A stretch of DNA of 64,000 bases, from the NCBI RefSeq assembly GCF_019599145.1, contig NZ_CP080647.1, positions 992,001-1,056,000 of the forward strand. Direction: 5' to 3'. The notes beneath the pieces were generated by a model. That model had not been told where the DNA came from, searched no databases, and saw nothing but the letters and a program-made list of their open reading frames with translations. Below are positions 27,270-60,702 of the stretch, one piece after another. A program made the translations under genes and the position numbers. Each line of letters begins with the position of its first letter. Within the stretch, counting starts at the first letter, position 1. Source of the stretch: Streptomyces akebiae. Lineage in GTDB: Bacteria > Actinomycetota > Actinomycetes > Streptomycetales > Streptomycetaceae.

Positions 27270-27440
27270 GGGCGGCGTGACGACGGCGAGCGTCTCGTCC
27301 ATCGCCACGGTGGCAGCCACGCGCAGTTCGGCCACCACTCCGTCGAAGGGGGCGGTCAGGGCGTGCTCCATCCCGCTCGTCCAGTGCGGGCGGCTGACGA
27401 GCGGCACCAGGGCCACCATGACCTGAACCACGTACTGCAA
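27270..27440 (-). pseudogene. C-terminal scrap of an acyl-CoA carboxylase biotin-carrier domain
   Basis: Residues from about 27375 down to 27270 read MEHALTAPFDGVVAEL and VAMDETLAVVTP, the strand pattern that follows the biotinylated AMKM motif in acyl-CoA carboxylase alpha subunits. The biotin Lys itself and everything before it are missing. It is fused in frame to unrelated upstream bases and followed by the acyl-CoA dehydrogenase remnant. Confidence 0.65.
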
Positions 27441-27453
27441 TACGAGACGGCGT
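27438..27453 (+). promoter_or_regulatory. Regulon motif, site a (TauD oxygenase promoter)
   Basis: CAATACGAGACGGCGT matches the recurring consensus NAATRCGAGAYGGCRT. It lies 8 bp upstream of the -35 element of the TauD-type gene's promoter. Its last 15 bases equal those of site b at 34974. Confidence 0.7.
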
Positions 27454-27461
27454 CACGCACA

Positions 27462-27490
27462 TTGACTCGAATTCTGCCCTGGCCTATGGT
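27462..27490 (+). promoter_or_regulatory. Sigma-70-type promoter for the TauD-type oxygenase
   Basis: TTGACT and TATGGT are separated by 17 bp, close to the housekeeping consensus of actinomycetes. The start point would be near 27497, about 280 bp upstream of the oxygenase start, leaving a long leader with a small frame and a hairpin. Confidence 0.7.
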
Positions 27491-27520
27491 TGAGGCACTT
27501 CTCGAAAGGACGGGACCAGC

Positions 27521-27661
27521 ATGGAGACAGCCGCCCTGATCGGCGTTCTGCTCGTGTCATGCCCTGGCCGCCGGACCTACGACGAGCCGCTCAGCTACTT
27601 CCCGCCGCGGGAAGGACTGCGCCCCGGTACGGCCGCCGGCGAGCCTCAGACCCCGTTCTGA
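27521..27661 (+). CDS. Possible 46-residue leader peptide
   Basis: ATG at 27521 is preceded by GAAAGGA ten bases upstream and runs to TGA at 27659-27661. The peptide starts METAALIGVLLVSCPG and ends Pro-rich (GEPQTPF). I do not recognise it. It lies in the leader between promoter and oxygenase and is followed by a hairpin, so it may be a regulatory leader or the stump of a lost gene. Confidence 0.35.
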   Translation: METAALIGVLLVSCPGRRTYDEPLSYFPPREGLRPGTAAGEPQTPF

Positions 27662-27675
27662 GCAGTCCGAGCGCC

Positions 27676-27775: not shown

Positions 27776-28849
27776 ATGACCACTTCTGTCGGCCTCCAGC
27801 CGATCTCCGGACCATCCGCCTGGCGCGGCGACGAACTGTCGCGGTCCACCGAATGGATCTACGTGCTCAGCGATGCCGAGCGCGCTGAGCTGGAGGCACT
27901 GGGGCGGCGCTTCGTCGCCGAGAATCCCGACCTGCGCACCGTCACCGCCGCCGACTACCCGTTCGACGCATGCCGCGCACTCAACGAGGAGTGCGCGGCC
28001 CAGATGGACACCGGACGCGGCTTCGTCCTGGTGCGCGGCCTGCGCACCGAGGAGTACGGCGACGTCGTGGCCGCCGCCATCTTCTTCGTCATGGGCCTGC
28101 ACCTGGGCCAGCCGATCGGACAGAACCAGCGAGGGGACCTGGTCGACCATGTGATCGCCACCTCCAACAAGACGCTGTCCGACGAGGGGGCTCTGCCCTC
28201 CCGCGTACGGGACCGGCTGCCGTTCCACTCGGACAGCTCCGACGTCGTCGCCCTCATGTGCCTGCGCGGCGCCAAGGAGGGCGGAGCCTCCAGCCTGGTC
28301 AGCGGCACCACGATCTACAACGAGATGCTGCGCCGCCGGCCGGATCTCGCCCCGCGGCTCTTCGACACGTACCACTGGGACTGGCGGCGTCAGGACCCCG
28401 ACTCTCCGGAACTGACGTACACCTCTCCGATCATCGGCTACGTCGACGGAGTCTTCAGCACCTACGCGGGCAACTCGATGATCTTCAGCGCCCAGGAGTA
28501 CCCCGGTGTCCCGCAACTGACGCCCGACCAGGTCGCGGCCATCAACCTCTTCGACGAGATCTCGCAGGAGCCGGGCCTGCCGATCGACATGGATTTCCAG
28601 CCGGGGGACGTGCAGTGGCTGCTCAACTACGCCGCGCTGCACTCGCGCACCAGCTACGTCGACCACCCGCAGCCGGAGCGCCGTCGGCACCTGCTGCGTC
28701 TGTGGCTCAAGCGGGACGTCGGCCGCCCGCTGGCTCCCAAGTTCGGCAAGCACGTCGTCGAGTTGGGTGAGCCCACGACCCCGCTGGTGCCCGGCGGCCG
28801 GTTCCGTATCGCCGACGCGGTCACCGTCAACGACGACTGGGGCGTGTGA
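27776..28849 (+). CDS. TauD/TfdA-family Fe(II)/2-oxoglutarate-type oxygenase
   Basis: This 357-residue protein has the facial triad of the clavaminate-synthase-like fold: His and Asp in LPFHSDSSDVV and a distal His in AALHSRTSYVDHP, with a downstream Arg in RRRHLLRLWL for 2-oxoglutarate. The family hydroxylates or cleaves small substrates such as taurine or aryloxyacetates, with decarboxylation of 2-oxoglutarate. The exact substrate is unknown. It stands alone between the leader at 27521 and a terminator at 28867. Site a upstream ties it to the catabolic regulon. Confidence 0.87.
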   Translation: MTTSVGLQPISGPSAWRGDELSRSTEWIYVLSDAERAELEALGRRFVAENPDLRTVTAADYPFDACRALNEECAAQMDTGRGFVLVRGLRTEEYGDVVAAAIFFVMGLHLGQPIGQNQRGDLVDHVIATSNKTLSDEGALPSRVRDRLPFHSDSSDVVALMCLRGAKEGGASSLVSGTTIYNEMLRRRPDLAPRLFDTYHWDWRRQDPDSPELTYTSPIIGYVDGVFSTYAGNSMIFSAQEYPGVPQLTPDQVAAINLFDEISQEPGLPIDMDFQPGDVQWLLNYAALHSRTSYVDHPQPERRRHLLRLWLKRDVGRPLAPKFGKHVVELGEPTTPLVPGGRFRIADAVTVNDDWGV

Positions 28850-30659: not shown

Positions 30660-31820
30660 CTAGCCCGGTTCGGTCAAGAGCCTTCGGTACACGCGCGCGA
30701 AGGCCATCAGCTCCGTCAACGACAGGGAGTCCCGCCGGGTGTCGTCCGTGGCCGGCCTGGCCCTCGGGCCGAGGCGTACGGTGTCGACGCCGCGGGCGCG
30801 CAGGACGACGCCGTCGGTCGAGCCCGTCCATCCGGTGATCGGCGGCGGCTGCGTACCGAACTCGTCGAGCCAGGCCGCTCGGGCGGCCGTCACCACCGGG
30901 GCGTCGGCCGGCGTGGCCGCGGCGGACGCGACCGGCTCCGCCGCCACGTCGACCTCGCAGTCACGCAGTGCCGACACCGCGCACCGCGCGCGCAGCCGGT
31001 CGGTCAGCTCGGCCGCCAGCGCCTTCGGCTCAACCTGGTCACCGGTGACGACGTACAGATCGACCCGCAGCTGGGCCGGCAGCAGGTCCGGCTTGTCGGG
31101 CCAGCCCCCGCTGATCGCTCCGATTCCGCAGGCCCGGCCGGTCTGTCCCACCCTGGGATCGGCGGCCAGGTAGGCCGTGCGCCAGCGTGCCAGTTCGTCC
31201 ATGACGATGCCGACCTGGGCGACGACTCCCCCGGGTGGCGTGGCGGATTCCGCCACCATCGCGGCACCGGAACGTCCGGTCACCCGGACGGTCAGGTAGC
31301 ACGCGCCCGGCTCGTGCCACAGCAGCGTCGGCGGGCCGCACTTGGCCACGATGGCCGAGGGCGGCAGGGGGTAGGCGGCGGTGTACGCCTCCAGACCGGT
31401 GATCCCGCTCGTGCGGCGATGTGTCCCGGAGCCGGCGAGCAGGAGCCGCCCGGCACCCGCCTCGGCGAAGGCGACCAGAGCGGCGGCTGCCGGGCCCCGG
31501 GCGACCCCGAGGCCGAAGCCGGTCACCAGGTCGTCGTCCACGGTGAGCGGACCGACCGGCGCGGCGGTGCCCGTGACCAGCCGGTTGAACTCACCACCGT
31601 CGTCCAGCGACGTGTCGAGGTGGGAGTACAGCAGCGGCCCGCCTCCGTGGGCGGCGACCAGGCTGCCGCCCGCGGAGCCGTGCTCCAGCACCTGCCACTC
31701 GACGTGCGGCCACCGCTCGGCGCACCAGGCGCGTACCCGGTGGGCCGCCGTGCGCTCCCCGCCGCGTGGGGCGGGGAGCGCGTCGAGCAGGTGCAGGACG
31801 TCGAGCAACTGCTGTCTCAA
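30660..31820 (-). CDS. M20-family metallohydrolase (peptidase/deacylase)
   Basis: This is a 386-residue protein if it starts at the TTG at 31820, which overlaps the stop of the extradiol dioxygenase (TTGA); no better start is visible before the conserved domain. LLYSHLDTSLDDGGEF gives the His-x-Asp zinc motif, and TGSTDGVVLRARGVDTVRLG the C-terminal metal/substrate segment of M20 enzymes. The family cleaves peptide or N-acyl bonds (ArgE, DapE, N-acyl amino-acid hydrolases). Being last in the Rieske operon suggests it releases an aromatic ring from an amide conjugate or handles an amide intermediate (inference). Confidence 0.75.
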   Translation of the reverse strand: MRQQLLDVLHLLDALPAPRGGERTAAHRVRAWCAERWPHVEWQVLEHGSAGGSLVAAHGGGPLLYSHLDTSLDDGGEFNRLVTGTAAPVGPLTVDDDLVTGFGLGVARGPAAAALVAFAEAGAGRLLLAGSGTHRRTSGITGLEAYTAAYPLPPSAIVAKCGPPTLLWHEPGACYLTVRVTGRSGAAMVAESATPPGGVVAQVGIVMDELARWRTAYLAADPRVGQTGRACGIGAISGGWPDKPDLLPAQLRVDLYVVTGDQVEPKALAAELTDRLRARCAVSALRDCEVDVAAEPVASAAATPADAPVVTAARAAWLDEFGTQPPPITGWTGSTDGVVLRARGVDTVRLGPRARPATDDTRRDSLSLTELMAFARVYRRLLTEPG

Positions 31821-33028
31821 AAACGTCCCCAGTCGTCGGACGCCGGACGCCACACGTCGATGTTGCGCGGGTCGGCCGGCATCCTGCGGGGCCGGTGTGT
31901 CTCGTGCTCCTCCGGCGTGAACACCCGGTGCCGGTCGCACAGTTCGTAACGCGGACCGAAGCGGGTGTCGTGCATGTAGAACGCGATCGACGTCGACGCC
32001 GAGTGGTTGACGATGTCGGAGGCGATCGGCGCGCCCTTGTACAGCGCGCGGGCGCGCATCCGCATGACGTGGTCGAGGCTCTTCATCGCGAAGCACAGGT
32101 GTGCGACGTAGTGCTCGGTGTTCTTCTGGATCGCGAGGCTGTGGTGGTATCGGTCCTCGCCGCGGAAGAACGTGGTCGAGCCGACGACGTGGTCCGAGGG
32201 CATGAAGTTCAGGACGTTCTGATAGAAGTCCACCATCTCCTCGAACTTCGCGGTGGCGATGAACGGGTGCACCAGGTCGAGCGGCCGGATCTCCAGGTGC
32301 GGCGGCTCGGCATACTCCTGGAACTCGGTGAACAGCTCGACGACGAGGCCGTCGGGGTCCTTCACCGCGAAGCCGTTGTCGCACAGCGCCTTCTGCCGCT
32401 CCTGCAGTTCCAGTACCTCGAGGCCGGCGTCGAGCACCCTCTTGTGCAACTGTTCGAGGACCTCCTCGCTCTCCACGCTGTAGCCGACCGCGGTCGTCCA
32501 TCCGTCGGTGCGCTCGGGGGCGTGGATCAGCTCGATCGCGTGGTGCTCGATGTCGGAGCGCAGGTAGGCGTACTCGTCCGTGCGCTGCTCCAGCTGCAGC
32601 CCGACGTGGTATTCGAGGAAGTCGATGGTGGCCTGCATGTCCGGGACTTCGATCCGGGCGTACTCCATGCCGTACGGGCCGTGCGGGCGGGTGCTCACCG
32701 GCGGTGTCCTTCCTGCAGCGAGCGCGGGACGCTCGGCGAACTCGAACGAGGTGATGGCCTGTTGGGCGATGACCGGCCGCCAGCGCGTGTGCACGAAGGT
32801 CTCGTGGGACTCGCTGCCGAGATAGGCGAGGAGGTCGTCCTGACTGTCGAAGTCGACGGCCATGGTGTGGGTGAAGGTCTGGTCACGGGTGCTGATGTTC
32901 TCGCCGAGGACGAAGCCGCGCATGGACGGGTACCGGTCCGGGAAGGTACGCAGCTCGGCCAGCACGGACTCCCGTGTGGCCTCGTCGACTCCGTCGGCGA
33001 AACGGAAGGACAGGGTGTGTCGGATCAT
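31817..33028 (-). CDS. Extradiol ring-cleavage dioxygenase (VOC) with an N-terminal Dabb domain
   Basis: This 403-residue fusion has residues 1-97 resembling the dimeric alpha/beta-barrel (Dabb) domain (MIRHTLSFRFADGV, TFTHTMAVDFDSQDDLLAYL). Residues about 115-375 are two VOC modules of a type I extradiol dioxygenase. Metal ligands of the family are present: His in LVHPFIAT, His in HYVAHLCFAM, Glu in GPRYELCD. The enzyme would open a catechol next to its hydroxyls using Fe(II) or Mn(II) and O2. It lies 21 bp after the Rieske beta subunit and ahead of the M20 gene, one operon. The Dabb fusion is not the usual layout. Confidence 0.86.
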   Translation of the reverse strand: MIRHTLSFRFADGVDEATRESVLAELRTFPDRYPSMRGFVLGENISTRDQTFTHTMAVDFDSQDDLLAYLGSESHETFVHTRWRPVIAQQAITSFEFAERPALAAGRTPPVSTRPHGPYGMEYARIEVPDMQATIDFLEYHVGLQLEQRTDEYAYLRSDIEHHAIELIHAPERTDGWTTAVGYSVESEEVLEQLHKRVLDAGLEVLELQERQKALCDNGFAVKDPDGLVVELFTEFQEYAEPPHLEIRPLDLVHPFIATAKFEEMVDFYQNVLNFMPSDHVVGSTTFFRGEDRYHHSLAIQKNTEHYVAHLCFAMKSLDHVMRMRARALYKGAPIASDIVNHSASTSIAFYMHDTRFGPRYELCDRHRVFTPEEHETHRPRRMPADPRNIDVWRPASDDWGRF

Positions 33029-33049
33029 CGGATCGCCTTCCGTCGCCGG

Positions 33050-33577
33050 CTAGAGGATGAAGCTGAGCCGGGCGCCTGCCGCCAGCGACTCGTGGCCGAG
33101 GATCGAGCGCCGCAACCGGAAACGCAGTCCGTCCTCGGTCGGCACCAGCAGGTGGTCGTACCACCCGACATAGGCGTCGAAGTGACCGTCCCGGGCGCGG
33201 TGGACCACGAAGGACGCCGCCACCCGGAAGGAGTCCTCCGTGTCCGACTCGGACAGCCGCACGTTGGACACCAGCCGGTGCGTGCGTGAGTGGGGGTTCT
33301 CGGCGTGTGCCTTGCGGGACTTCAGGCGCTTGACCCGGGCCTTGAGCAGGTCCCAGTCGTCGTCGACGAACGATCCCGTCCGGTGCGGCGACCAGCCGGG
33401 ACGGTAGTCCGTGGTCGGGATCTCGTAGCGGGCGCCGTCCTCGAAGAGGGCCAGCCAGCTGTCGTAGTCCCAGTGGTCGAGGATGTCCGCCTCGGTGTAG
33501 AGGAAGTCCTCGACCTCCTGTCGGGTGACGGTGCGCCCGGCGCACAGCACCAGGCCGCTGTTGCTGATCGCGGTCAT
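33050..33577 (-). CDS. Aromatic-ring-hydroxylating dioxygenase beta subunit
   Basis: This 175-residue NTF2-like subunit (VEDFLYTEADILDHWDYDSW, RYEIPTTDYRPGW, HRLVSNVRLSE) is typical of small subunits that stabilise Rieske oxygenase hexamers. Its ATG overlaps the stop of the alpha subunit (ATGA), which fixes the partnership. Confidence 0.92.
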   Translation of the reverse strand: MTAISNSGLVLCAGRTVTRQEVEDFLYTEADILDHWDYDSWLALFEDGARYEIPTTDYRPGWSPHRTGSFVDDDWDLLKARVKRLKSRKAHAENPHSRTHRLVSNVRLSESDTEDSFRVAASFVVHRARDGHFDAYVGWYDHLLVPTEDGLRFRLRRSILGHESLAAGARLSFIL

Positions 33578-34926
33578 CGCACATCCCTCCCGACCAGGAA
33601 GGACGCCGGCCGCTCGCCGTGGATCTCAAGGCCGTCGTCGAGCCCGACGGCTTCGACCCATTGCCGCCAGAAGCCCCGCATCGCGCCTTCGTCGATCGAT
33701 CTGCCCTGGACACCCTTGACCTCATCGGCCATGCCGCGCGACATGTCGCTGTAGTCCAGCTCGGGCCGGGTGGTGCCGGCCGTGGCCTGGATGCCGCGCT
33801 GGACCGCCTCGTAGGCCTCGATGTCGTCCGGTGTGGCGAGCCCGCCCGGGCCGACGAAGCTGACGACCGTCTTCATGCGCAGGGCACGTGTGTCCGGGTC
33901 CTCGTCGCGCGGCACCAGCTGCCAGGCGCGTACGTCGGTCTGGTCGGGTGCCACCGGCTCCAGTTGCCGGATCGACAGGCCCTCGATGTCGAAGAGCAGG
34001 AGGTTGGGGAACACGAACAGGATGTGGCTCTCGTCGGCCACGTGGTGAGCTCGCTTCTCCCCCAGCCGCTGTGTCATCTCGGCGCGGTGGGCCTCGGTGC
34101 GGACCCGCTCGTCCTCGCCGAAGCGCGGTTCCCAGAGCATGCTGATGCGTCCGCCGTGCCCGGTCAGGACCAGGAGGCCGTGACCGTTGCCGAGGTTGTA
34201 GGCGTACTGGTTGTCGTCGGTGACGGCGTAGCCGCTCTCCCGCAGGTAGCCCACGAAGGTGTTGTGCGTCGGCGCGAAGTGGTAGCCGTCCATGGCGTTC
34301 TCGACGGCGAGCTTCCAGTTGCCGCGCACGCTGTAGAGCTGCGTGCCGGGCAGCGTGGTCATCCCGCCGAGATGTTGCTGCTCGATCATGGTCATGTAGT
34401 CGGCCGCGTCGCCGAGGTACTCGAGCAGCGGCGGGACGTCGGGGTCGAAGGAGACGAAGACGAACCCCTCGTGGGTCTCCAGGCGCGGCACGCCGCGCAG
34501 CCCCATCGACGCCCCGAACGCGTCACCCGATTCGTAGGCGCCGACATCGGGGATCGCGGCGAGCTCACCGTTGTTGCGGAACGTCCAGGCGTGGTAGAAG
34601 CACTGGAAAAGCCTGGTCGAGCCCTCGTTCTCACGGCACAGCACGGTGCCGCGGTGCGGACACGAGTTCAGGAACGCGTGGACCTCGCCGGCGCTGTCCC
34701 GGCAGAAGATCAGCGGTCGGCCGCCGAGGGTGCGGACCTTGAAGTCGTTGGGGTTGGGGATCTCGGTCTCATGCCCGAGGTAGAGCCAGGTGTGCATCCA
34801 CACCCAGCCGCGTTCCCGGGCAAAGATCTCCGCGTTGCGGTAGGCCTCGCGGTTGACCCGGAAGGTGAGCTGGTCCCAGTCCTCGACGATCATCGGCGCT
34901 GGGACGGTCCGGGGATTGCTTCCCAT
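33574..34926 (-). CDS. Rieske non-haem iron aromatic-ring dioxygenase alpha subunit
   Basis: This is a 450-residue protein. The ATG at 34926 is chosen with GAGAGG upstream; the frame is open further up but overlaps the promoter and operator. The Rieske motif is complete (SCPHRGTVLC and CFYHAWTF: Cys-x-His, Cys-x2-His). The mononuclear iron site is in AMDGYHFAPTHN (two His). Alpha subunits of this class dihydroxylate or monooxygenate an aromatic ring using electrons from ferredoxin. The divergent ferredoxin and reductase genes at 35115-36442 are the obvious electron donors. Sites b and c of the regulon motif flank the shared promoter region. Confidence 0.93.
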   Translation of the reverse strand: MGSNPRTVPAPMIVEDWDQLTFRVNREAYRNAEIFARERGWVWMHTWLYLGHETEIPNPNDFKVRTLGGRPLIFCRDSAGEVHAFLNSCPHRGTVLCRENEGSTRLFQCFYHAWTFRNNGELAAIPDVGAYESGDAFGASMGLRGVPRLETHEGFVFVSFDPDVPPLLEYLGDAADYMTMIEQQHLGGMTTLPGTQLYSVRGNWKLAVENAMDGYHFAPTHNTFVGYLRESGYAVTDDNQYAYNLGNGHGLLVLTGHGGRISMLWEPRFGEDERVRTEAHRAEMTQRLGEKRAHHVADESHILFVFPNLLLFDIEGLSIRQLEPVAPDQTDVRAWQLVPRDEDPDTRALRMKTVVSFVGPGGLATPDDIEAYEAVQRGIQATAGTTRPELDYSDMSRGMADEVKGVQGRSIDEGAMRGFWRQWVEAVGLDDGLEIHGERPASFLVGRDVR

Positions 34927-34973
34927 GGGGAGTTTGCCTCTCACAAGTCCCGACCCGAGCGGCGCCTCGTGAG

Positions 34974-34989
34974 ACGCCGTCTCGTATGT
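34974..34989 (-). promoter_or_regulatory. Regulon motif, site b (Rieske operon)
   Basis: The reverse strand reads ACATACGAGACGGCGT; its last 15 bases are identical to those of site a. It lies just downstream of the predicted promoter at 34996-35024, a roadblock position for repression. Confidence 0.72.
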
Positions 34990-34995
34990 CGCATC

Positions 34996-35024
34996 ACCCT
35001 CCCCCAGCGCGCCCACACTGTCAA
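34996..35024 (-). promoter_or_regulatory. Probable promoter of the Rieske operon
   Basis: The reverse strand has a perfect TTGACA (35024-35019), then 17 bp, then GAGGGT, a weak -10. The start would fall about 60 bp before the alpha-subunit ATG, inside or beside site b. Confidence 0.5.
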
Positions 35025-35088
35025 GCATTCACCGGACGGTTGACACCCGCACCCGGACGTGACCATCATCCTGTTCCACATTGAAATA

Positions 35089-35104
35089 CACCGTCTCGCA
35101 TTCT
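35089..35104 (-). promoter_or_regulatory. Regulon motif, site c (ferredoxin operon)
   Basis: The reverse strand reads GAATGCGAGACGGTGT, matching the consensus at most positions. It ends 10 bp before the ferredoxin GTG and so overlaps the start region of that divergent operon. Confidence 0.65.
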
Positions 35105-35114
35105 GTGCGACCGT

Positions 35115-35447
35115 GTGAAGGGCAACAAGCTCGTGCCGTACGTCATCACTCAGGCTTGCGTCGACGTCATGGACAAGTCCTGCATGGAGGAGTGCCCGGC
35201 CGACTGCATCTACGAGGGCGATCGGATGCTCTACATCCAGCCCGACGAATGCGTCGAGTGCGGGCGCTGTGAACCCGTCTGCCCGCAGATATCGATCTTC
35301 CACCACGAGGACCTGCCGGAGGAGAGCAAGCAGTTCGAGCGCGTCAACGCCGAGTTCTTCACCCTCGGCGCCGAACCGCTCGGGTCGCCCGGTGGGGCCC
35401 GCAAGGTCGGCCGGGTCGGTCACGACCACCCGGAGGTGGGCGCGTGA
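35115..35447 (+). CDS. 7-Fe-type (3Fe-4S/4Fe-4S) ferredoxin
   Basis: This 110-residue protein starts at GTG 35115; a second GTG at 35133, before [10 protein letters not shown], is also possible and matches the usual FdxA N-terminus better. Cysteine spacing is C-x7-C-x3-C-x3-C ([17 protein letters not shown]) and C-x2-C-x2-C-x3-C ([11 protein letters not shown]), as in FdxA ferredoxins. The C-terminal SPGGARKVG tail is also typical. It probably carries electrons to the divergent Rieske oxygenase. Its stop overlaps the reductase GTG (GTGA). Confidence 0.9.
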
Positions 35448-36442
35448 CCGGCGTAGTGACCACGGGCGCCTGCTCCGAGGTCACCGTCGACCTGCTCATC
35501 ATCGGCGCCGGCCCCACAGGGCTCTACGCCGCGTACTACGCCGGCTTCCGCGGCATGAGCGTCGCGGTCGCCGACGCCCTGCCCGCGGTGGGCGGCCAGA
35601 TCGCCGCGTTGTACCCGGAGAAGCTCATCTACGACGTGGCCGGCTTCCCCGCTGTCCGAGGTCAGGACCTGGTGGACCGGCTGGCCGAGCAGGCCTGGCG
35701 GTGGAACCCCACCTATCTGCTCGGGCACGGAGTCACCCAGCTCGACGACACGGACGGGGGCATCGTCGCCACCACCGACGCCGGCGCGCGGATCACCGCG
35801 GGGGCGGTGCTCGTCTGCGGCGGGATCGGCAACTTCATCCCCCGCGAGCTCCCGGTGGGCTCCGAGTACCTGGGCCGGGGGCTGCGGTACTTCGTACCGC
35901 GGTTGAACGAACTCTCCGGACAGGACGTCGTGGTGGTCGGCGGCGGTGACTCCGCGCTGGACTGGGCGCTGTCCCTGGAGCCGATCGCCTCGTCGGTGAC
36001 GCTGGTGCACCGGCGCACGCGGTTCCGGGCCCACGAGCGCAGCGTCGAGCAGGTGCACGCCTCCTCGGTGCGGGTGCTGACGCCGTACGAGGTCGAGAAG
36101 GTCTCCGGTGAAGGGGCCGTCTCGGAGGTCGTGGTCGCGTGCTCCGACGGCGACCGGGTCACCCTGCCCGCCCAGTCCGTCGTGGCCGCGCTCGGCTTTA
36201 TCGCCGACCTCGGCCCGATCGAGCGGTGGGGACTGGAGCTTCGCCGCAGACGCATCCTCGTCGACCGCACGATGCGCACCAACCGGGAGCGCGTCTTCGC
36301 GGCCGGCGACATCGCCGATCACGACGGCAAGGTCAGCCTCATCTCCATCGGCTTCGGCGAGGCGGCCCTGGCCGTCAACCACATCGCCACCCTGCTCGAT
36401 CCGGCACGCTCGATCACACCGGGGCACTCCTCGGACGCGTGA
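35444..36442 (+). CDS. FAD-dependent ferredoxin-NAD(P) reductase (thioredoxin-reductase-like)
   Basis: This 332-residue flavoprotein has an FAD GxGxxG ([18 protein letters not shown]), [20 protein letters not shown] typical of the bacterial FNR2 group, an NADPH motif ([15 protein letters not shown]) and a C-terminal FAD motif ([18 protein letters not shown]). No CxxC redox disulphide is present, which separates it from true thioredoxin reductases. It couples NAD(P)H to the adjacent ferredoxin for the Rieske enzyme. Start GTG 35444 overlaps the ferredoxin stop. Confidence 0.92.
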
Positions 36443-36611: not shown

Positions 36612-36627
36612 TCATTCAAGATGGCGT
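36612..36627 (+). promoter_or_regulatory. Regulon motif, site j (iclR promoter)
   Basis: TCATTCAAGATGGCGT is a weaker match to the consensus, 50 bp upstream of the second iclR gene. It suggests that this regulator controls itself. Confidence 0.45.
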
Positions 36628-36678: not shown

Positions 36679-37476
36679 ATGGCCACGAAGGCACAGGACG
36701 GCACCGGCGAGCAGGACGGTCCGGACAGGACCGCGCCCACGATCCAGACGGTGCAGCGTGCGGCCCTGATCCTCGGCTCGTTCACGGTCGGCAAGCCGCA
36801 CATGAGCCTCAACGAGATCACCGCGCGTCTCGGTGCGAGCAAGGCGACCGCGCACCGGTACACGAAGGCGCTGCGGGCTGCGAACCTGCTGCGGTACGAC
36901 GAGCGCACGTCGCTGTACTCCCTCGGGCCCCAGGTGCTGACGCTCGCCACGGCGGCGCGGGCCGGCCTTCCGATCGTCGCCGCCGCCGAGCCGTACATGG
37001 AGGAACTGGTCCGGCGCATCGACGAGACGATCGTGCTGTCGGTCTGGGACGGCGAGTCGGCGACCGTGGTGCGCTCGGTGGACAACACCGACCACATGGT
37101 GCGCATCAGCGTCCGGGTCGGCTCGCGACTGAACCTCACGGCCTCGGCACAGGGGCGTGTCTTCCTCGCGTTCCTGCCGCCGGAGCAGGTACCCACGCTG
37201 CCGCGCTCGGTACGCAAGTCGGCCGAACTCACCGAGGAGCTCGAGGCCATCCGCAAGCACGGACTGTCGGTCAACTCCCCCACCATCAACGGGGTGCGCA
37301 CCGTCGCGGCGCCGATCTTCGAGGGCGACAAGATCAGCGGGACACTCGCCATCGTCGGCACGACGGCGACCGTTCCCGACGACGTCCAGTCGCCGATGGC
37401 CCAGGCGCTGGTGGAGACCGCCCGCGCGCTGTCGCAGCGGCTGGGCACCTCGGAGGACGCGCCCAACGGCGGCTGA
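36679..37476 (+). CDS. IclR-family regulator, candidate master regulator of the aromatic cluster
   Basis: This 265-residue protein has a winged helix-turn-helix (MSLNEITARLGASKATAHRY) at about 40-60 and an IclR effector domain (ASAQGRVFLAFLP, NGVRTVAAPIFEGDKISG). Family members bind aromatic acids or central metabolites and act as repressors or activators. It sits in the middle of the catabolic genes as a single transcription unit between two terminators and carries a variant of the regulon motif in its own promoter. The link to that motif is inference. Confidence 0.9.
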   Translation: MATKAQDGTGEQDGPDRTAPTIQTVQRAALILGSFTVGKPHMSLNEITARLGASKATAHRYTKALRAANLLRYDERTSLYSLGPQVLTLATAARAGLPIVAAAEPYMEELVRRIDETIVLSVWDGESATVVRSVDNTDHMVRISVRVGSRLNLTASAQGRVFLAFLPPEQVPTLPRSVRKSAELTEELEAIRKHGLSVNSPTINGVRTVAAPIFEGDKISGTLAIVGTTATVPDDVQSPMAQALVETARALSQRLGTSEDAPNGG

Positions 37477-38747: not shown

Positions 38748-38776
38748 GGAGTCCTCCCGGGATGTGCGAGCGCGCG

Positions 38777-39940: not shown

Positions 39941-39967
39941 CGAGGTGTGCTCCAGGGTGGGGAACGG

Positions 39968-40816: not shown

Positions 40817-40829
40817 GGCGGGCATCTTT

Positions 40830-40845: not shown

Positions 40846-40948
40846 CGTGTCAAGCGATACGGAGAGGCGGGTTCCGGGCAGGTCGGACACCTCGCCCCGG
40901 ACAGGAGCCGGGGCCGATGCGACGGCACAGCTGTTTACATATTGCAAG

Positions 40949-50566: not shown

Positions 50567-50596
50567 CGCTGATCTTTCCTCGTCGCTGTCGGCGCT

Positions 50597-51688
50597 TCAG
50601 CCGAGGCGCTCGACCTCGGCCGCCGGATCGATCTTGTCGGTGCCGATCTTCTTCATGAACCGGTCCAGCCGCTGCGCCTCGTCGCCCTCGGGACGGCAGA
50701 TCTTGACGGTCGGGTAGGGGTCGACGCCCAGCTTCCACACGCGCGTCGTGCCCATCTTGAGGTTGTCCTTGGCGAACTCCTCCAGCGCTGAGCGGAAGTA
50801 GTCACCCGGGCTGAAGATCACGGAGATGTCGTACTTCGGGCTGGTCGAGTCGCACCGGTCGGTGCCCGGCGTGAGCGTCAGCGCACCGCCCTCGTTCGCC
50901 ATCTGCGCGGCGGCGTCGGTCGCTCCGCCGAGGTAGGGGTAGATGACCTTGATCCCCTGGCTGATCTGTGCCTGGGTGGCTTCCTTGGCCTTGGCCGAGT
51001 CGTTGAAGTCGCCGGTGTAGGTGCTCGTCATGGTGGCCTTCGGGAGGACCTCCCGGATCCCCGCCAGGAACGCCTTGGCGGCGTTGACGCTGAAGTCGGC
51101 CTTGTTGCCGGTGATGAACCCGGCCTTGGTGTAGCCGGCCGCCTTCATCTTCAGGCCCGCGGCGTAGCCGGCGGCGAGCAGGGACTGGTTGGGGTCGTCG
51201 GCGGACAGCAGGACCCGGGGGTGGACGTCGGTGTCCGACGACGACGGCAGGTACCAGACCGTCTTGCTGCAGACCGGTTCCTCGGAGGCCGGGATCGCCG
51301 TCTTGAGCTCGCTCGCGCCGAGCGCGACCATGTCGACGTTCTGCTGGCACATCGCGCGGGCCGCGGTGAGCGCGTCGCTCGGCGGCACACTGCCGCGCTT
51401 GATGATCGTCCAGTCCTTCTCCTTCGCGAACGCCTCCGCCGAGTCGACGAAGCTCTGGTAGTAGCCGCGGTCGTTGATGTCGCCGGGGCTGAGGACACCG
51501 ACGACGACCTTGCCGTCACCGTTGACGTCGGGCTCCTTGAGGGCGGAGTCGCTGCCGCCGCCGTTCGCCGCAGGGGTCGCTTTGGACGCCGTCGCCGCGT
51601 TGTCGGCGCAGCCGGAGAGCACGAGGGCTCCCGCGAAAGCGAGGCCGGCCGCGGCCCGACGACGCCTGGGCATGCTTCTTGTGGTCAT
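50597..51688 (-). CDS. BMP-family ABC transporter substrate-binding lipoprotein
   Basis: The protein has 363 residues from the ATG at 51688. The signal has a basic start (PRRRRAAAG) and a lipobox (LSGC). The BMP fold marks are VVVGVLSPGDINDRGYYQSF, MVALGASELK and KAGFITGNKADFSVNAAKAF. Relatives bind nucleosides or purines; aromatic and amide ligands are also known. Heading the importer operon beside an amidohydrolase and near a PucR regulator suggests an N-containing heterocycle (inference). Confidence 0.9.
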   Translation of the reverse strand: MTTRSMPRRRRAAAGLAFAGALVLSGCADNAATASKATPAANGGGSDSALKEPDVNGDGKVVVGVLSPGDINDRGYYQSFVDSAEAFAKEKDWTIIKRGSVPPSDALTAARAMCQQNVDMVALGASELKTAIPASEEPVCSKTVWYLPSSSDTDVHPRVLLSADDPNQSLLAAGYAAGLKMKAAGYTKAGFITGNKADFSVNAAKAFLAGIREVLPKATMTSTYTGDFNDSAKAKEATQAQISQGIKVIYPYLGGATDAAAQMANEGGALTLTPGTDRCDSTSPKYDISVIFSPGDYFRSALEEFAKDNLKMGTTRVWKLGVDPYPTVKICRPEGDEAQRLDRFMKKIGTDKIDPAAEVERLG

Positions 51689-52438
51689 CTGTGTGCTTCC
51701 GTTCGCTCGGTGGCACCGCCTCTTCGGGGCGGTGATCACGTCGGGGGTGGCGGTCTGTCGGCGGGGCCGACGGCCCGGTCGAGTTCGGCGCAGGAGACAC
51801 GGTCCTCGTGGGAGAGGGGCTCCTCGCCCGTGGTGACGAACCACGGGATCCGCCCGGCCATTCGGACCCGGTTGGGGTCGACGCGGTCAGGAGCGGATGT
51901 GATCGAAAGATCGGTGGTGGTGCGGACGGCCTCCGAGGGCGCGATGAGCGCGTCCTGGAAGCAGGGATGGTGTTCGCCCCGGACTTCGCCCGTGCGCCCG
52001 CCACTCCATGGGGCGAGGCTGTCGGCCGACGACGGTGGGTCGACGTTCTGTGTGGGGCGCAGTCGCCGGTCGGCGATGGCCGTTTCACTGGCGCACAGTG
52101 GATGTGCGAGGGCCACCGCTCGATGTGATCGAGGGTCTCGCTGGTCGTGACGTTCGCTGTGAGAGCGTCGGTGTGCTCGGTGTCGAGCCAGGCGTCTTCG
52201 GCTGGGGGTGTCCGGCTGCCGGGCACCGGTGAACGACCGTGATCGACGGCGGCCCTCGCTGAACTGCGTGCAGCAGCCGTACGGCGCGGCGTCGACTCCT
52301 GTGTTGGAGGCGAGTGTGTCGGAGGCGAGCCTGGTAGGTCGTGCCGGCCGGGCCGGCGACCATCCCTCGTGACAGCGGGTCCTGTTTCCTCGCCGACGGA
52401 AGCCCTGACTTGTCGATGACGTTCAACGGCGGGTCTCC
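51689..52438. other. 750-bp gap with no recognisable gene
   Basis: Only short or low-complexity frames occur here. A reverse-strand frame at 51736-52116 (126 codons, with RVRMAGRIPWFVTTGEEPLS) has some protein-like composition but no family I recognise, and another at 52085-52426 begins MNVIDKSGLPSARKQD. Together they could be the debris of one lost gene between the amidohydrolase and the importer. No tRNA or clear terminator is seen. Confidence 0.5.
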
Positions 52439-53818
52439 TTACCGGTCGGCCGCCCGCTCCGTGGGCCAGGTGGGGCGGGGCGTGATGCCGGCGCGTCCGA
52501 GGAGGGCGGCGGATCGTTCGGCGGCGGCCGCGGCGACGGCCGCCAGGTCAACACCCGTCGGCCGCCGGTCACGGACGACCACGCGGCCGTCGACCAGCAC
52601 GTCACGGACGGTGCGCGAGACATGACCCCATACGAGCTGGCGGGCGAGGTCGCCCCGGGGGATCCAGGCGGGATCGTCGGCGTCGAGCACGACGATGTCG
52701 GCGGCCTTGCCCACCTCGATCGAGCCGATGCGGTCGCCGAGACCGATGGCCCGAGCGCCGTCGATCGTCGCCAGCGCGAACGCCTGCTCGGCGCGGACAG
52801 GGTCGGGCAGATCACGGTCGCGTTCGAGGGCGGCGAACAGGTAGGCGGCGAGGAGGACGTCCGGGCCGTCACCGGCGTTGTGCGCGTCGCAGCCCAGCGC
52901 CACCCGGCCGCCACGCCGCACCAGTTCGGCATGGCGGGATGCACGCGTGTACCCCTGGGCGAGACGCAGGTAGGCCCCCGGGCAGACGGCGACAGCGGTT
53001 CCGGTCTCGAGGATGGCGTCGACCTCCGCGTCGTCGAGCCACAGGGCGTGCCCCAGCAGCAGACGTGGGCCGAGCACCCCCAGCTCGCGGAAGTGGACCA
53101 CCGGCCGGCGCGCGCAGCGCAGGGCGTAAGCCTCGATGTCGGCGGGTCCCGGCGAGATGTGCCAGGTGAGTCCGACATCGAGCCGCTGGGCCAGGCTCGC
53201 CGCCCCGGCGAAGAGTTCGTCGCTCGCCAGGTCGTGGCCGACGAGCGTCACCCAGCCGGTGACCGGCCCGGTGGCCGGCAGGGACCTGACGATGTCCTCC
53301 TGCCGGGCGAGCACCTCGTCGGCGGGCGCGCCGAACGGCACGCCCTCGGCGTCCCAGCCCCAGCCGCCGACCCGCGCGCGGACACCTGCGGCGGCGAGCC
53401 CCGCGGCGACTCGTTCCGGGTAGGCCACCGTGCCCGGTTCCAGCACCGTGGTGACGCCCCGGGTCAGACAGTCGACCGCCGTGATGGTCGCGGCCAGTTC
53501 GTCGTCGTCACCGTCGGCGTGGGCGTGCAGCGGGACGATCCAGTCGAAGATCGACTCCTGCGAGCCGATGTCGTCCGGGATCGTGCTGCGCACGAGGGGG
53601 TCGACGGTGGTGTGCTGGTGGGCGTCGACCAGGCCCGGGATCACGACACAGCCCGACGCGTCGATCTCCCGCGCTCCCGGGAAGCGGGCGCGCAGGTCCG
53701 CGGCCGTGCCGAGTGCGGCGATGCCGTCCCCGGAGACCGCGACCGTCGTACCGGTGAGGACGCGCCGAGCGGGGTCCATCGTGACGACGTCGCCACCCAC
53801 GATCAGAAGGTCGGTCAT
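52439..53818 (-). CDS. Amidohydrolase (TrzN/AtzA-SsnA-like deaminase group)
   Basis: This 459-residue metal-dependent hydrolase has the HxH motif in PGLVDAHQHTTVDPLVR, metal His in LTWHISPGP, GHALWLDD (catalytic His) and the metal Asp in ALGCDAHNAGDG. Beta-sandwich ends are VGGDVVTMDPARRVL and KAADIVVLDADDPAW. The group deaminates or dechlorinates N-heterocycles such as guanine, 8-oxoguanine or s-triazines. Its ATG overlaps the stop of the truncated alcohol dehydrogenase fragment upstream, so it is translated from that transcript. Confidence 0.87.
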   Translation of the reverse strand: MTDLLIVGGDVVTMDPARRVLTGTTVAVSGDGIAALGTAADLRARFPGAREIDASGCVVIPGLVDAHQHTTVDPLVRSTIPDDIGSQESIFDWIVPLHAHADGDDDELAATITAVDCLTRGVTTVLEPGTVAYPERVAAGLAAAGVRARVGGWGWDAEGVPFGAPADEVLARQEDIVRSLPATGPVTGWVTLVGHDLASDELFAGAASLAQRLDVGLTWHISPGPADIEAYALRCARRPVVHFRELGVLGPRLLLGHALWLDDAEVDAILETGTAVAVCPGAYLRLAQGYTRASRHAELVRRGGRVALGCDAHNAGDGPDVLLAAYLFAALERDRDLPDPVRAEQAFALATIDGARAIGLGDRIGSIEVGKAADIVVLDADDPAWIPRGDLARQLVWGHVSRTVRDVLVDGRVVVRDRRPTGVDLAAVAAAAAERSAALLGRAGITPRPTWPTERAADR

Positions 53819-54120
53819 GGCTCGATCACGACCTTGCCGATCGTCTCGCGGGCGGCGAGCACGTCCCGGTCACCGGGGACGACCCAGCTGACCGCGGTCC
53901 CGGTCGCCACCACCGTCCCGGCGAAGTCCATGCCCGGCACGGGCGGAAGCCGGAAGCCGGGTACCCGGCCCGGCCCCATGCGCTGCGGCAGGTCCAGGCG
54001 GTTCAGCCCGCGGTGCACGACCTCGACGAGAACGTCGCGCGGTCCGCGGACCGGCTCGGGGAAACCCTGCGGGGACACGGCCTCGGGTCCGCCGAAATCT
54101 GTCTGCACCATGGCTCGCAC
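53815..54120 (-). pseudogene. Internally deleted medium-chain dehydrogenase (quinone oxidoreductase type)
   Basis: This 101-residue frame is in two parts. Residues 1 to about 86 are the GroES-like N-terminus of an MDR enzyme (MVQTDFGGPEAV, VLVEVVHRGLNRLDLPQR, VPGMDFAGTVVATG). The last 15 or so (AARETIGKVVIEP) equal the extreme C-terminus of the same family. About 220-240 residues carrying the cofactor site are missing, yet the junction keeps the frame and the stop still overlaps the amidohydrolase start. It is inactive as a dehydrogenase but may be kept as a translational lead-in. Confidence 0.82.
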
Positions 54121-54138
54121 CGCACTGCCTCCTCACCC

Positions 54139-54154
54139 TTGCCGTCTCGCATTG
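54139..54154 (-). promoter_or_regulatory. Regulon motif, site g1
   Basis: The reverse strand reads CAATGCGAGACGGCAA, a strong consensus match, 18 bp before the start of the MDR remnant and amidohydrolase unit. It is embedded in a CTCGCATTGCGAG inverted repeat. Confidence 0.68.
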
Positions 54155-54164
54155 CGAGGCGGTG

Positions 54165-54180
54165 GAACGTATTGCGAGGT
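54165..54180 (-). promoter_or_regulatory. Regulon motif half-site g2
   Basis: The reverse strand reads ACCTCGCAATACGTTC; CGCAATACG repeats the left half of the motif 10 bp from site g1, as if two dimers bound side by side. Confidence 0.45.
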
Positions 54181-57020: not shown

Positions 57021-57057
57021 GGGGGGAACCTTGACCGACCTTGTCCCACATGTCAAT

Positions 57058-57073
57058 ATGCGGTCTCGCTTTG
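57058..57073 (-). promoter_or_regulatory. Regulon motif, site h (ALDH/ADH divergent promoters)
   Basis: The reverse strand reads CAAAGCGAGACCGCAT, close to consensus. It sits between the ALDH start (57020) and the ADH start (57094) and can affect both. Confidence 0.58.
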
Positions 57074-58176: not shown

Positions 58177-58307
58177 GCATCGCCCACGGGACGTTGTCGC
58201 AGGCGGCGCGACACCTTAGGGTGGCCGACGCCGATGAGGCACCCGGCATCCGGTGGCGCGGCCGGACAACACCGCGCACAGGTCCGAGCACGTGGAGCGT
58301 GCCCACC

Positions 58308-60521
58308 ATGTCCGCCGACTTCGACATCGACATCGACTTCGATCACCACTCCGACGAGGCCAACGCCGACCCGGTCGCCTACTACGCGCGCTTCCGAGAG
58401 GCCTGCCCGGTAGGCCGCTCCGCGGCACACGGCGGCTTCCACTACACGACGCGATACGCCGACGTGGCCCGAATCGCCCGCGACGACGAGACGTTCTCCT
58501 CGGCCCGCAGCGACCACGGTGGTCAAGGAGTCGGCATCGTCATCCCCAAGGGACCCGGGCTGGAGCAGTACCCGATCGAGCTCGACCCGCCGAGTTCCAC
58601 CGCGTACCGGAAACTGATCAACCCGCTGCTGACCCCCGAGGCGGTCGAGCATCTGGTCCCCATGATCGAGCGCCACGCCGCCCGCGTCGTGGACGACTTC
58701 GTCGAGCTCGGTTCCTGCGACCTCGTCCGCGACCTCACCAATCCGCTGCCGGCCGCGGTGACCCTGGACTGGCTGGGTTTCCCCGAGGAGGACTGGGCCA
58801 GGCTGGCCGGGCCGATCCACGACATCTTCGCCGCCCCGGCCGGCAGCGAGCGCGCCGCGCGGGGGGCCGCAGGACTGGCCTACATGGACCGGCGGATCCG
58901 CGAGCTGATCGCCGAGCGCCGGTCCGAGCCGAGGTCCGACGGGGTCAGCACGCTGGTGGCCGGCCGGCGCGACGACGGCGGCGAGTTCGGCGAGGACGAA
59001 CTGGTGTCGGTGATCGGCCTGCTCATCGCCGGCGGCGTCGACACCACCACCTCCCTGACGGGATCGACCCTCGTCCACCTCGCTCGCCACCCCGAGCAGC
59101 GCCAGAAGCTGATCGAATCCCCCGGCCTGCTGGACACCGCGACCGAGGAGTTCCTCCGCGCGTTCGCCCCGTCGCAGTCGATGGCCCGCACGGTCACCCG
59201 GGACACGGAGGTCGGCGGCTGCCCGATGCACGCGGGCGACCGGGTGCTGATCCCATGGGTCGCCGCCAACCACGACCCCGCCGTGTTCCCCGACCCCGAG
59301 CAGGTACGACTGGACCGCGACGCCGGCCGGCACCTCAGTTTCGGGATCGGGTCGCACCGGTGCGTCGGCGCGCACCTCGCCCGGGCCATGTTCCGCGCGA
59401 TGATGACCCAGGTCCTGACCAGGCTGCCCGACTACCGGGTGATCGAGGAGGGGCTCGTTCCCTACCCGACACGCGGCAACCAGTCCGGCTGGGACGCGGT
59501 CCCGGCGGTCTTCACGCCCGGTGCCCGAGCGACCGCGGCGACCGGCTCGATCCGGGCGCTGACCACACCCACTCCGCTGCGGGTCACCGAGGTCCGCGCA
59601 GCGGCCGACGGCGTCGTCGCCGTCGACCTCGGCCTGCCGGACGGCGGCGAACTGCCCGGGTGGCGGCCCGGCGCGCACGTCGAGCTGCGTCTGCCCTCGG
59701 GCAGGCTGCGCCAGTACTCGCTGTGCGGCGACCCCGCCGACGCCACGACCTGGCGCATCGGCGTCCTTCACGAGCCGCAGGGCCGGGGCGGATCGGTCGA
59801 ACTCCATGAACTCGCCCGGCCCGGAGCCATCTTCTCGGTACGCGGACCGCGCAACCACTTCCCGCTGCTGCGGGCGCCGTCGTATCTGTTCATCGCCGGC
59901 GGCATCGGTGTCACACCGATCCTCGCCATGGTCCGCGAGGCCGCCGGACGCGGCACGCCCTTCACCGTCGTGTACGGCGGCCGCACCCGCTCGACGATGG
60001 CATTCGCAGACGAACTCGCCGCCATCGCCGGCGACGCGCTCACCCTGCTCCCACAGGACGAGGCCGGACTGCCGGATCTCCCCCGGCTGTTGGGCGGGCT
60101 GGCCCCGGACACCGCCGTCTACGCGTGCGGGCCGGCGCCGATGCTGGCGGCGGTCGAACAGGAATGCGCCCGACTGGACCTCACCGACCGGCTGCACCTG
60201 GAGCGCTTCGCCGACGGCGACGCCCCGGAGACCACGTTCGACGCCGCTGAGAACCGGGCCTTCGAGGTCCAGCTCGCGCGCACGGGAGTCACGCTCACCG
60301 TGCCGGCCGACCGCCGCCTCATCGAGGTCCTGCGCGATGCCGTCAGCGGTCTGTCCTACGACTGCGAGAAGGGATACTGCGGCGCCTGCGAGACGCGTGT
60401 CCTCGCCGGGACACCCGAACACCGCGACTCCGTGCTCAGCGACGAGGAACGTCTCGCCGGGCGCACGATGATGATCTGCGTCGGCCGCTGCCAGGGCGAT
60501 CGGCTCGTCATCGACCTCTGA
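58308..60521 (+). CDS. Self-sufficient cytochrome P450-reductase-ferredoxin fusion (CYP116B-like)
   Basis: This 737-residue single-chain monooxygenase has a P450 domain (about 1-400) with the I-helix motif LLIAGGVDTTTS, ExxR-type EFLRAF and haem loop SFGIGSHRCVGAHLA (Cys 352). Next comes a phthalate-dioxygenase-reductase-like FMN/NADH domain (about 415-645; QYSLCGDP, FIAGGIGVTPILAM, VYACGPAPML). Last is a plant-type 2Fe-2S domain (CEKGYCGAC plus MMICVGRC; Cys 686, 691, 694 and about 724). Such enzymes oxidise small aromatics and ethers from NAD(P)H without partners. It runs with the ADH and ALDH genes, which could process its products. Confidence 0.94.
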   Translation: MSADFDIDIDFDHHSDEANADPVAYYARFREACPVGRSAAHGGFHYTTRYADVARIARDDETFSSARSDHGGQGVGIVIPKGPGLEQYPIELDPPSSTAYRKLINPLLTPEAVEHLVPMIERHAARVVDDFVELGSCDLVRDLTNPLPAAVTLDWLGFPEEDWARLAGPIHDIFAAPAGSERAARGAAGLAYMDRRIRELIAERRSEPRSDGVSTLVAGRRDDGGEFGEDELVSVIGLLIAGGVDTTTSLTGSTLVHLARHPEQRQKLIESPGLLDTATEEFLRAFAPSQSMARTVTRDTEVGGCPMHAGDRVLIPWVAANHDPAVFPDPEQVRLDRDAGRHLSFGIGSHRCVGAHLARAMFRAMMTQVLTRLPDYRVIEEGLVPYPTRGNQSGWDAVPAVFTPGARATAATGSIRALTTPTPLRVTEVRAAADGVVAVDLGLPDGGELPGWRPGAHVELRLPSGRLRQYSLCGDPADATTWRIGVLHEPQGRGGSVELHELARPGAIFSVRGPRNHFPLLRAPSYLFIAGGIGVTPILAMVREAAGRGTPFTVVYGGRTRSTMAFADELAAIAGDALTLLPQDEAGLPDLPRLLGGLAPDTAVYACGPAPMLAAVEQECARLDLTDRLHLERFADGDAPETTFDAAENRAFEVQLARTGVTLTVPADRRLIEVLRDAVSGLSYDCEKGYCGACETRVLAGTPEHRDSVLSDEERLAGRTMMICVGRCQGDRLVIDL

Positions 60522-60613
60522 GAGCGGGCCGGGCGGGCGCGTCCACCGGCCGCCCGGGCCGACGATCACGTCGTACGCCACCACCGCCGCGCGCAGCGCC
60601 TCCAGGCACGACG

Positions 60614-60646
60614 ATGGGCCCCGTCCGAAGACCGGACGGGGCCCAT
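60614..60646 (+). terminator. 14-bp stem terminator after the P450 fusion
   Basis: ATGGGCCCCGTCCG and CGGACGGGGCCCAT pair perfectly around AAGAC and are followed by ACTCGTT. Confidence 0.85.
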
Positions 60647-60686
60647 ACTCGTTGCACCTCATCCCTTTTTCCGAGATGACGTATTG

Positions 60687-60702
60687 CAATACGAGACGCT
60701 TT
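60687..60702 (+). promoter_or_regulatory. Regulon motif, site i (acetamidase)
   Basis: CAATACGAGACGCTTT continues from a perfect GTATTGCAATAC palindrome (60681-60692), about 80 bp before the acetamidase/formamidase start. Confidence 0.68.

Follow-up and report, generated by a model that had tools for sequence, protein, structure and literature searches.

A conserved operator system for a probable IclR-type regulator of a lumichrome-type catabolic cluster in Streptomyces akebiae

Which protein reads a short motif that recurs in front of oxygenase, hydrolase and dehydrogenase genes in the genome of Streptomyces akebiae, and what do these genes have in common? The question is raised by a stretch of 64,000 nucleotides (assembly GCF_019599145.1, contig NZ_CP080647.1, positions 992,001 to 1,056,000 of the forward strand), hereafter the window, to which all coordinates refer unless they are given as genome positions. 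The first-pass annotation, made from the sequence alone, had proposed a 16-bp operator through which a single IclR-type regulator (36679-37476) governs a dispersed aromatic-catabolism regulon. Enriched in the window and arranged in a recognizable architecture, the sites stand at the same promoters across actinobacteria and are found together with the regulator gene. We consider it likely that the motif is the operator of the 36679-37476 protein and that it controls a catabolic regulon of the lumichrome type, lumichrome being a product of vitamin B2 (riboflavin).

Every motif copy listed at the outset was located in the sequence, with one position corrected from 35089 to 35088. Relative to the 16-mer of the first-pass annotation, the copies at 27438 and 40830 have no mismatches, those at 34974, 35088, 43769 and 54139 have one, 40949 and 57058 two, 60687 and 36612 three, and 43789 four; the 15 bases said to be common to 27438 and 34974 are indeed so (ATACGAGACGGCGTC). 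Leave-one-out (LOO) matrices, from which each of the 10 main sites was omitted in turn, were scored against 240 kb of the same genome (12 x 20 kb), and nine of the 10 sites exceed all positions of this background, bearing out that the copies are present and enriched. Site 43789 is equalled by 68 background places and is the +20-bp partner box of 43769 rather than the separate site it had been taken for. At one mismatch or fewer, AATRCGAGAYGGCRT occurs at nine places in the 10.55-Mb genome, six of them in the window; the remaining three (genome positions 963489, 6774998 and 6989610) were rejected as regulon members because all lie within predicted open reading frames (ORFs). The ORF around 963489 may encode a transport permease. 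A 21-bp palindromic form of the site, allowed up to three mismatches, is found at nine distinct genome places (13 rows, some on both strands), of which six are in the cluster, against none for the control. When two mismatches are allowed, AATRCGAGAYGGCRT is found at 40 places genome-wide versus 33 for a reversed control, which means that the loose form by itself does not discriminate. The few sites elsewhere in the genome look like chance occurrences, and the regulon, its strict sites confined to about 27-61 kb of the window, is clustered and not dispersed as first described.

These counts also bear on whether the motif is an operator at all, or a conserved core-promoter or repeat element, or a chance enrichment. 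The loose matching and three further places in the window that score at least 14 outside the regulon (21577, in a SnoaL-type ORF, 62714 and 63861) would fit such an explanation; the LOO scores and the concentration of the strict palindrome in the cluster do not, and neither do the site positions, which are kept gene by gene across families and vary from promoter to promoter relative to TTGAC. We regard it as extremely improbable.

The existence of the motif thus stands, whereas its description as a simple 16-bp site is superseded: the 16-mer represents a single arm of a 23-bp palindrome that occurs in arrays with 20-bp spacing. Alignment of the sites reveals an inverted copy centered 11 bases into the 15-mer and, less strongly, a direct copy at +20 and an inverted one at -12. 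Fifty-five sites picked with the window's 15-mer matrix in 16 non-Streptomyces loci yield the consensus AATRCGAGAYG-S-YRTCTCGYATT, a 23-bp pseudo-palindrome whose right arm falls mostly beyond the 15-mer used for the picking. With arrays chosen by the 11-mer AATRCGAGAYG alone and further boxes counted at up to two mismatches of 8, the centre-11 inverted box is present in 21/37 Streptomyces-type and 33/49 other arrays and the direct +20 box in 14/37 and 19/49, these being the two top offsets in both sets. An outward-facing box at -11 ranks third in the non-Streptomyces set (15/49) and is seen in 6/37 Streptomyces-type arrays, among which an inverted offset of -13 (10/37) takes the third rank above it.

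In the account of IclR operators in PMC8222616, the boxes alternate in direction, inward-facing pairs are separated by a gap of N1-2, and tandem centers lie 18-22 nt apart. The boxes in the window follow the same layout, which supports a binder of the IclR type, and they resemble the group 2 or three-box operators described there in having alternating boxes, a one-base inward gap and a tandem spacing of 20 nt. A direct repeat of the AraC type was considered and dropped, as no AraC-type helix-turn-helix was found among the 58 ORFs given to Pfam; the sole AraC-related match among them is the AraC_binding cupin at 37621-37977 (lumY).

The genes behind these sites had been thought to include some with no obvious biochemical link to one another. 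They instead correspond to lumA-Y, the cluster for lumichrome (vitamin B2) catabolism in Pimelobacter (Nocardioides) simplex ATCC 6946, a strain whose lumichrome-degrading enzymes were demonstrated in 2025 (PMC12746152). The record of this strain is locus L089 of the set recovered with the IclR protein (see below), and the lum letters used here were assigned by order, size, Pfam class and the text of PMC12746152. Pfam scans of the cluster identify a Rieske dioxygenase, a ferredoxin, a reductase, an extradiol-type enzyme with a Dabb domain, FAH, amidohydrolase, HpcH/HpaI and cupin proteins, a BMP-type importer, an aldehyde dehydrogenase (ALDH) and a P450-reductase-ferredoxin fusion. Identity to the P. 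simplex ORFs reaches 80% for the Rieske alpha subunit, 71% for beta, 79% for the extradiol enzyme, 65% for FAH and 75% for the LumW-like protein; it is 57% for the P450 fusion, 60% for ALDH and 31% for the alcohol dehydrogenase (ADH). Orthologs of LumA-E and LumV-Y occur together, and the LumU-type P450 fusion occurs with ADH and ALDH. To judge from these similarities, the supposed aromatic regulon matches a lumichrome-type catabolic regulon. The two clusters share orthologs of LumA-E, V-Y, U, N and the transporter, the same IclR neighbor, and the same operator at lumB/lumC and lumV, with a further site near lumH in P. simplex and a marginal one at ALDH/Bmp. A further place outside the window, genome position 1118776, was set aside as well, since none of the P. 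simplex ORFs has its best match there.

How far the operator extends beyond the window was followed in 60 loci recovered with the IclR protein as query from Streptomyces, Nocardioides, Pimelobacter, Actinomadura, Blastococcus, Microtetraspora, Micromonospora, Pseudonocardia, Rhodococcus and other genera. A site was called where the matrix trained on the window alone scored at least 14 between 350 bp upstream of the estimated start and 50 bp inside it. Such sites are present at lumC in 38/45 loci, lumB in 28/31 and lumV in 35/39, and likewise at TauD (13/20), ADH (5/5), the amidase (7/10), the flavin reductase (3/3) and XylF (2/2). At the ALDH start all 14 scorable rows, the window's own included, reach 14 (three of them marginally, at 14.1), with one further row not scorable; they represent 13 distinct places, L123 being within the G435 stretch. 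Other genes of the loci have no site at their starts (lumE 0/37, aldo-keto reductase 0/15, Bmp 0/9, CoA-transferase 0/5) or almost none (lumF, 1/33), and of 297 gene interiors none contains one. Five of the loci, all from Microtetraspora (L106-L109, L111), encode IclR paralogs 61-64% identical and with a similar recognition helix, with no lum genes or site in the fetched locus.

The candidate binder (36679..37476, plus strand) is a clear member of its family, HTH_IclR scoring 40.1 bits (cut-off 22) and IclR_C 89.8 bits (cut-off 24), and its gene is present in all nine longer stretches examined (20-120 kb). At E <= 1e-40 the gene is found in 8 of 392 genomes of a Streptomyces set; at least five sites with 0-1 mismatch occur in seven of these eight, versus two of the 384 genomes without it (tallied by eye), and with the window's own genome left aside the figure is six of seven. 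A search that started from LumE (E <= 1e-90, 394 genomes of the class) recovered two clusters besides that of the window, both with the IclR gene and sites. In these two orthologs, whose aligned portions show 59% and 63% identity, 13 and 12 of the 15 residues of the recognition-helix segment are kept. The claim of one IclR-type regulator for many transcription units is in this way supported for the 36679-37476 protein as the putative binder, found with the sites across loci.

Two other regulators are encoded in or beside the cluster and could own the sites instead: a PucR-type protein (54362-55657), whose gene is placed between two operator-bearing promoters, and the first IclR protein (about 25779-26213). 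The 60 IclR-ortholog loci yielded neither, although many of those contigs do not extend as far as a PucR gene would lie; nor was PucR found in six of the nine longer stretches that keep the sites (G431, G432, G435, G133, G609 and G503; 20-80 kb), and the first IclR gene adjoins a different pathway (intradiol dioxygenase, Fe-ADH). Ownership by either is very unlikely.

Several observations weigh against assigning the sites to the 36679-37476 protein and the regulon to lumichrome. The box RCGAGAYG does not conform to the published IclR box consensus (RYGRAMC for group 1, TGRAACA for group 2), from which it departs at one or two positions. Co-occurrence with the IclR gene is built into the 60 loci, and only the two LumE-derived clusters were found independently. 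The recognition-helix segment is on average 94% identical across the 47 non-Streptomyces loci versus 60% over the full length; the peptide KATAHRYT, located in that helix and used for retrieval, is present in 46 of the 47, and the conservation was set aside as an argument since it is mostly retrieval bias. G009 has the IclR gene and merely two strict sites. No site reaches 14 in 10 of the 60 loci, among them L079, which has a 91% identical IclR protein and several cluster genes; two more were grouped with these for want of a convincing site (L110, with one at 14.7, and L117, with two at 18.6 and 19.3 and no lum genes), and most of these 12 loci have few or no lum genes. Sites are also missing in the other loci at the P450 (0/6), PnuC (0/3) and amidohydrolase (0/4, within 350 bp) starts. 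The copy said to precede the regulator's own gene is present (36612..36627, plus strand; three mismatches, score 13.3), and it is weak and doubtful, with only 15/60 loci reaching 14 at this gene; the case for autoregulation is weak. Promoter elements are sparse: TTGAC lies within 45 bp of only 5/9 sites, and a scripted search finds promoter pairs at 3/11 starts (see below). Lastly, relatives of LumH-M are missing near the window, and the substrate may be something other than lumichrome itself.

Taken promoter by promoter, the first operator of the regulon precedes the TauD/TfdA-family oxygenase gene (27776..28849, plus strand; Pfam TauD). It occupies 27439..27461 (plus strand; AATACGAGACGGCGT, no mismatches, LOO 22.4), its footprint is visible in seven aligned leaders (the window and six relatives), and a TTGACT-17-TATGGT element starts at 27462, just past it. 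A 46-aa small ORF at 27521-27661 (plus strand) lies between this operator and the TauD gene, and its start codon, gap-free length and C-terminal end are kept in the seven leaders. The genes lumE, lumD and lumC (minus strand) and lumB and lumA (plus strand) span 31817..36442 and resemble ORFs of P. simplex ATCC 6946 at 64-80% identity; they are adjoined by a lumF-like gene (30675..31853, minus strand) 56% identical to the P. simplex ORF beside lumE and with no Pfam match. The lumC (Rieske alpha) operon has its operator at 34966..34988 (minus strand; beginning CATACGAGACGGCGTCTC, LOO 19.3) and the lumB (ferredoxin) operon at 35080..35102 (minus strand; AATGCGAGACGGTGT, LOO 20.2). Site 34974 falls inside the longest LumC ORF and is probably upstream of the true lumC start, since similarity to the P. 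simplex ORF starts near 34932 and the published 49-kDa LumC fits such a start. The genes lumY (cupin), lumX (HpcH/HpaI), lumW (amidohydrolase) and lumV (FAH), recognized by Pfam and 60-76% identical to P. simplex, form a minus-strand operon (37621..40825) whose operator at 40831..40853 (plus strand; AATGCGAGATGGCAT) has an LOO score of 23.2.

Next comes a near-perfect palindrome at 40941..40963 (minus strand; GATAAGAGATGGCATCTTGCAAT, one mismatch to the 21-bp palindrome), the operator of a gene for an XylF-like binding protein, which is followed by genes for an unknown 185-aa protein, a PnuC-like transporter and a flavin reductase (41066..44485, plus strand; Pfam). The flavin reductase gene has a tandem operator (43770..43804, plus strand) with boxes at 43770 and 43790, 20 bp apart, the first scoring LOO 18.4, and a TTGACA-17-TAGCGT element at 43786/43809 overlaps it. 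The XylF-like, PnuC-like and flavin reductase genes adjoin the same operators, in few Streptomyces loci only; flavin reductase and PnuC were found in 3 of the 60 loci scanned (L071, L072 and L082). These genes could have a role in riboflavin uptake or reduction. No obvious candidate ORF for the riboflavin monooxygenase RcaE stands beside the flavin reductase in these three loci or in the window, as judged by its expected size with no RcaE sequence compared.

Further along, a minus-strand unit at 52439..54120 consists of an amidohydrolase gene (52439-53818) and a truncated medium-chain dehydrogenase/reductase (MDR) gene (53815-54120), both identified by Pfam. Its operator array (54131..54179, minus strand; 54139, LOO 18.2) has an inverted partner at 54150 and a 12-nt direct repeat at 20-bp spacing. 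About 100 residues are left of the MDR protein, and a gene of 343 aa stands at the equivalent place in the relative G292 (L161:10019-11050). A single operator (57050..57072, minus strand; LOO 14.4) lies between the divergent lumN/lumT-like ALDH (55572-57020, minus strand; Pfam) and ADH (57094-58176, plus strand) genes, the latter recognized from its sequence and from relatives of 54-93% identity and not from a Pfam scan of that frame. The self-contained, lumU-like P450-reductase-ferredoxin fusion follows at 58308-60521 (plus strand; Pfam, 57% to the P. simplex ORF); where it follows ADH it probably depends on the ADH promoter, since no site is near the P450 start in any of the six loci. The last gene of the set, of the acetamidase/formamidase family (60785..61927, plus strand; Pfam FmdA_AmdA), has a tandem operator at 60668..60702 (plus strand), with the site at 60687 (LOO 15.4) and its partner box at 60667 being 20 bp apart. 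Beyond it, two half-sites facing outward lie at 62701-62727, upstream of a GPP34-domain ORF; site 62713 was set aside as an extra promoter, no site being found after the amidase gene in the G179, G292 and G009 stretches.

How might the regulator act at these promoters? The operator is a 23-bp pseudo-palindrome that is often accompanied by another box at a distance of 20 bp or, on its opposite side, by one that faces outward, and a dimer of dimers could occupy one face of the DNA at such arrays. The 36679-37476 protein would in this way control lumBA, lumCDE(F), lumVWXY, the ALDH unit, the ADH/P450-fusion unit, the amidohydrolase unit, the amidase and TauD and, in some strains, the flavin reductase/transporter unit as well. 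Provided that the protein binds, the mode we favor, with fair confidence and on modest promoter evidence, is repression lifted by a ligand; as a guess from the pathway, that ligand is probably lumichrome or a pathway intermediate. It is also conceivable that the same IclR regulator binds and activates, in the manner of PcaU or PobR with their extra external box. Its best NCBIfam relation is indeed TIGR02431 (PcaR/PcaU/PobR; 99.4 bits, with BhcR close at 98.8), extra boxes exist in the arrays, the TauD array lies just upstream of a -35-like element, and -10-like elements are poor at most starts. The scripted search, set to TTGAC-type promoters whose -10 reads TAnnnT, found pairs at TauD and the flavin reductase, where the site abuts or overlaps the pair, and a poor one at XylF, with none at the other 8/11 starts. 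At four promoters (lumB, lumC, ADH, MDR unit), however, the sequence read by eye has TTGAC ahead of the site, and at lumV and ALDH it has TTGAC flanking it; at the flavin reductase the scripted pair is overlapped by the site from -35 to -10. Occlusion fits the first four and the flavin reductase better than activation does, and we take activation to be unlikely. For comparison with the 5/9 sites, TTGAC is found at the same distance in 0.095 of background windows and 0.214 of low-GC windows.

Whether the operator serves the lumichrome pathway as known from P. simplex is a separate matter, as the clusters differ in their middle. No LumH, I, J, K/L or M match above 30% occurs in 224 kb around the window; genome-wide, LumH gives hits of 30-35% far away and a K/L query none, the latter being of limited weight (LumI, J and M were not searched genome-wide). 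Relatives of LumH, I and J at high identity are found in Nocardioides and Pimelobacter loci, and those of K/L and M in two longer Nocardioides/Pimelobacter stretches and in Dactylosporangium, while for Streptomyces, Actinomadura, Blastococcus and Microtetraspora the LumH-M queries return matches of only 25-31% or none in the stretches retrieved, which for Actinomadura and Blastococcus did not exceed 20.8 kb each. In contrast to P. simplex, the window adds genes for TauD, another amidohydrolase, an amidase, a CoA-transferase and PnuC/flavin reductase. TauD, the additional amidohydrolase and the amidase occur in various combinations in the stretches of these same four genera, and TauD and the amidase stand behind the same operator in most loci. 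The Streptomyces-type clusters, with upper and lower lum enzymes kept and no close relatives of the Nocardioides middle module, suggest a variant route, and the authors of PMC12746152 themselves suggest that pathway variants may exist.

Tentatively, and at somewhat less than an even chance, we propose a second, so far undescribed route of lumichrome (flavin) breakdown in Streptomyces and other actinobacteria, in which TauD, the additional amidohydrolase and the amidase replace the molybdenum/thiamin middle module, one IclR regulator and its operator having stayed and recruited each new gene. If true, the regulator would act as a sensor of flavin breakdown and turn the removal of a plant and quorum-sensing-mimic signal on and off. 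The Streptomyces-type regulon might instead serve a different quinoxaline- or flavin-like compound, with only part of the pathway common with lumichrome degradation. The poor or missing LumH-M matches and the presence of the three added enzymes in the same stretches can be read in this way too, as can the G503 stretch, in whose 60 kb neither the P450 fusion nor ADH or ALDH gave a match; on the other hand, the window and many of its relatives keep LumU-, LumN- and LumT-like genes, which belong to lumichrome methyl oxidation, beside the same operator. A different substrate is a serious possibility, if one that falls short of being probable.

Known regulators offer partial likenesses to the 36679-37476 protein and its operator. 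The TIGR02431 family, the top-scoring NCBIfam model, shares with it aromatic catabolism and an external third box; the score stays below the cut-off of 284.75, and the operator sequence is different. NdgR/LtbR, with the motif KTYCRSMWYSYGRRM in Table 1 of PMC8222616, has a half-site, SYGRRM, compatible with RCGAGA, yet differs in its pathway (amino-acid biosynthesis) and in the single palindrome type given in that table. The RCGAGAYG motif is not in Table 1, although the supplementary list of 181 groups in the same work may already hold such a prediction. A literature search for lumichrome with IclR returned no paper, one for six operator strings returned only papers unrelated by title and the start of the abstract, and none was found on such a regulator. 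The earlier statement that no described operator with this sequence is known accords with Table 1 and these text searches. A word search of the main text of PMC12746152 finds no IclR, regulator, transcription or operator, and in the text consulted of the commentary PMC12752717 regulators are mentioned only as lumichrome targets. What the window holds is probably the conserved operator system of a lumichrome-pathway regulator, of an ordinary kind and, as far as the searches reach, new in its sequence, regulator and regulon. It supplies a probable regulator, an operator and a gene list across several actinobacterial families for a pathway with 2025 enzymology (PMC12746152). The same paper presents lumichrome as a plant and quorum-sensing-mimic signal, which lends ecological interest to a switch for its removal. 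With the operator as a guide, more genes of the pathway can be sought, candidates for the variant middle route among them, and the question of which compound the cell senses can be taken up.

Two further regions complete the picture. A BMP-type ABC importer (lumOPQR-like; Pfam) is encoded at 46924..51844 on the minus strand, with 50% and 55% identity to two P. simplex ORFs. The region 24206-27440, beside an intradiol-dioxygenase/Fe-ADH pathway, contains the first IclR gene and several ORF fragments, one of which reads like the start of a CoA-transferase and which together suggest decay.

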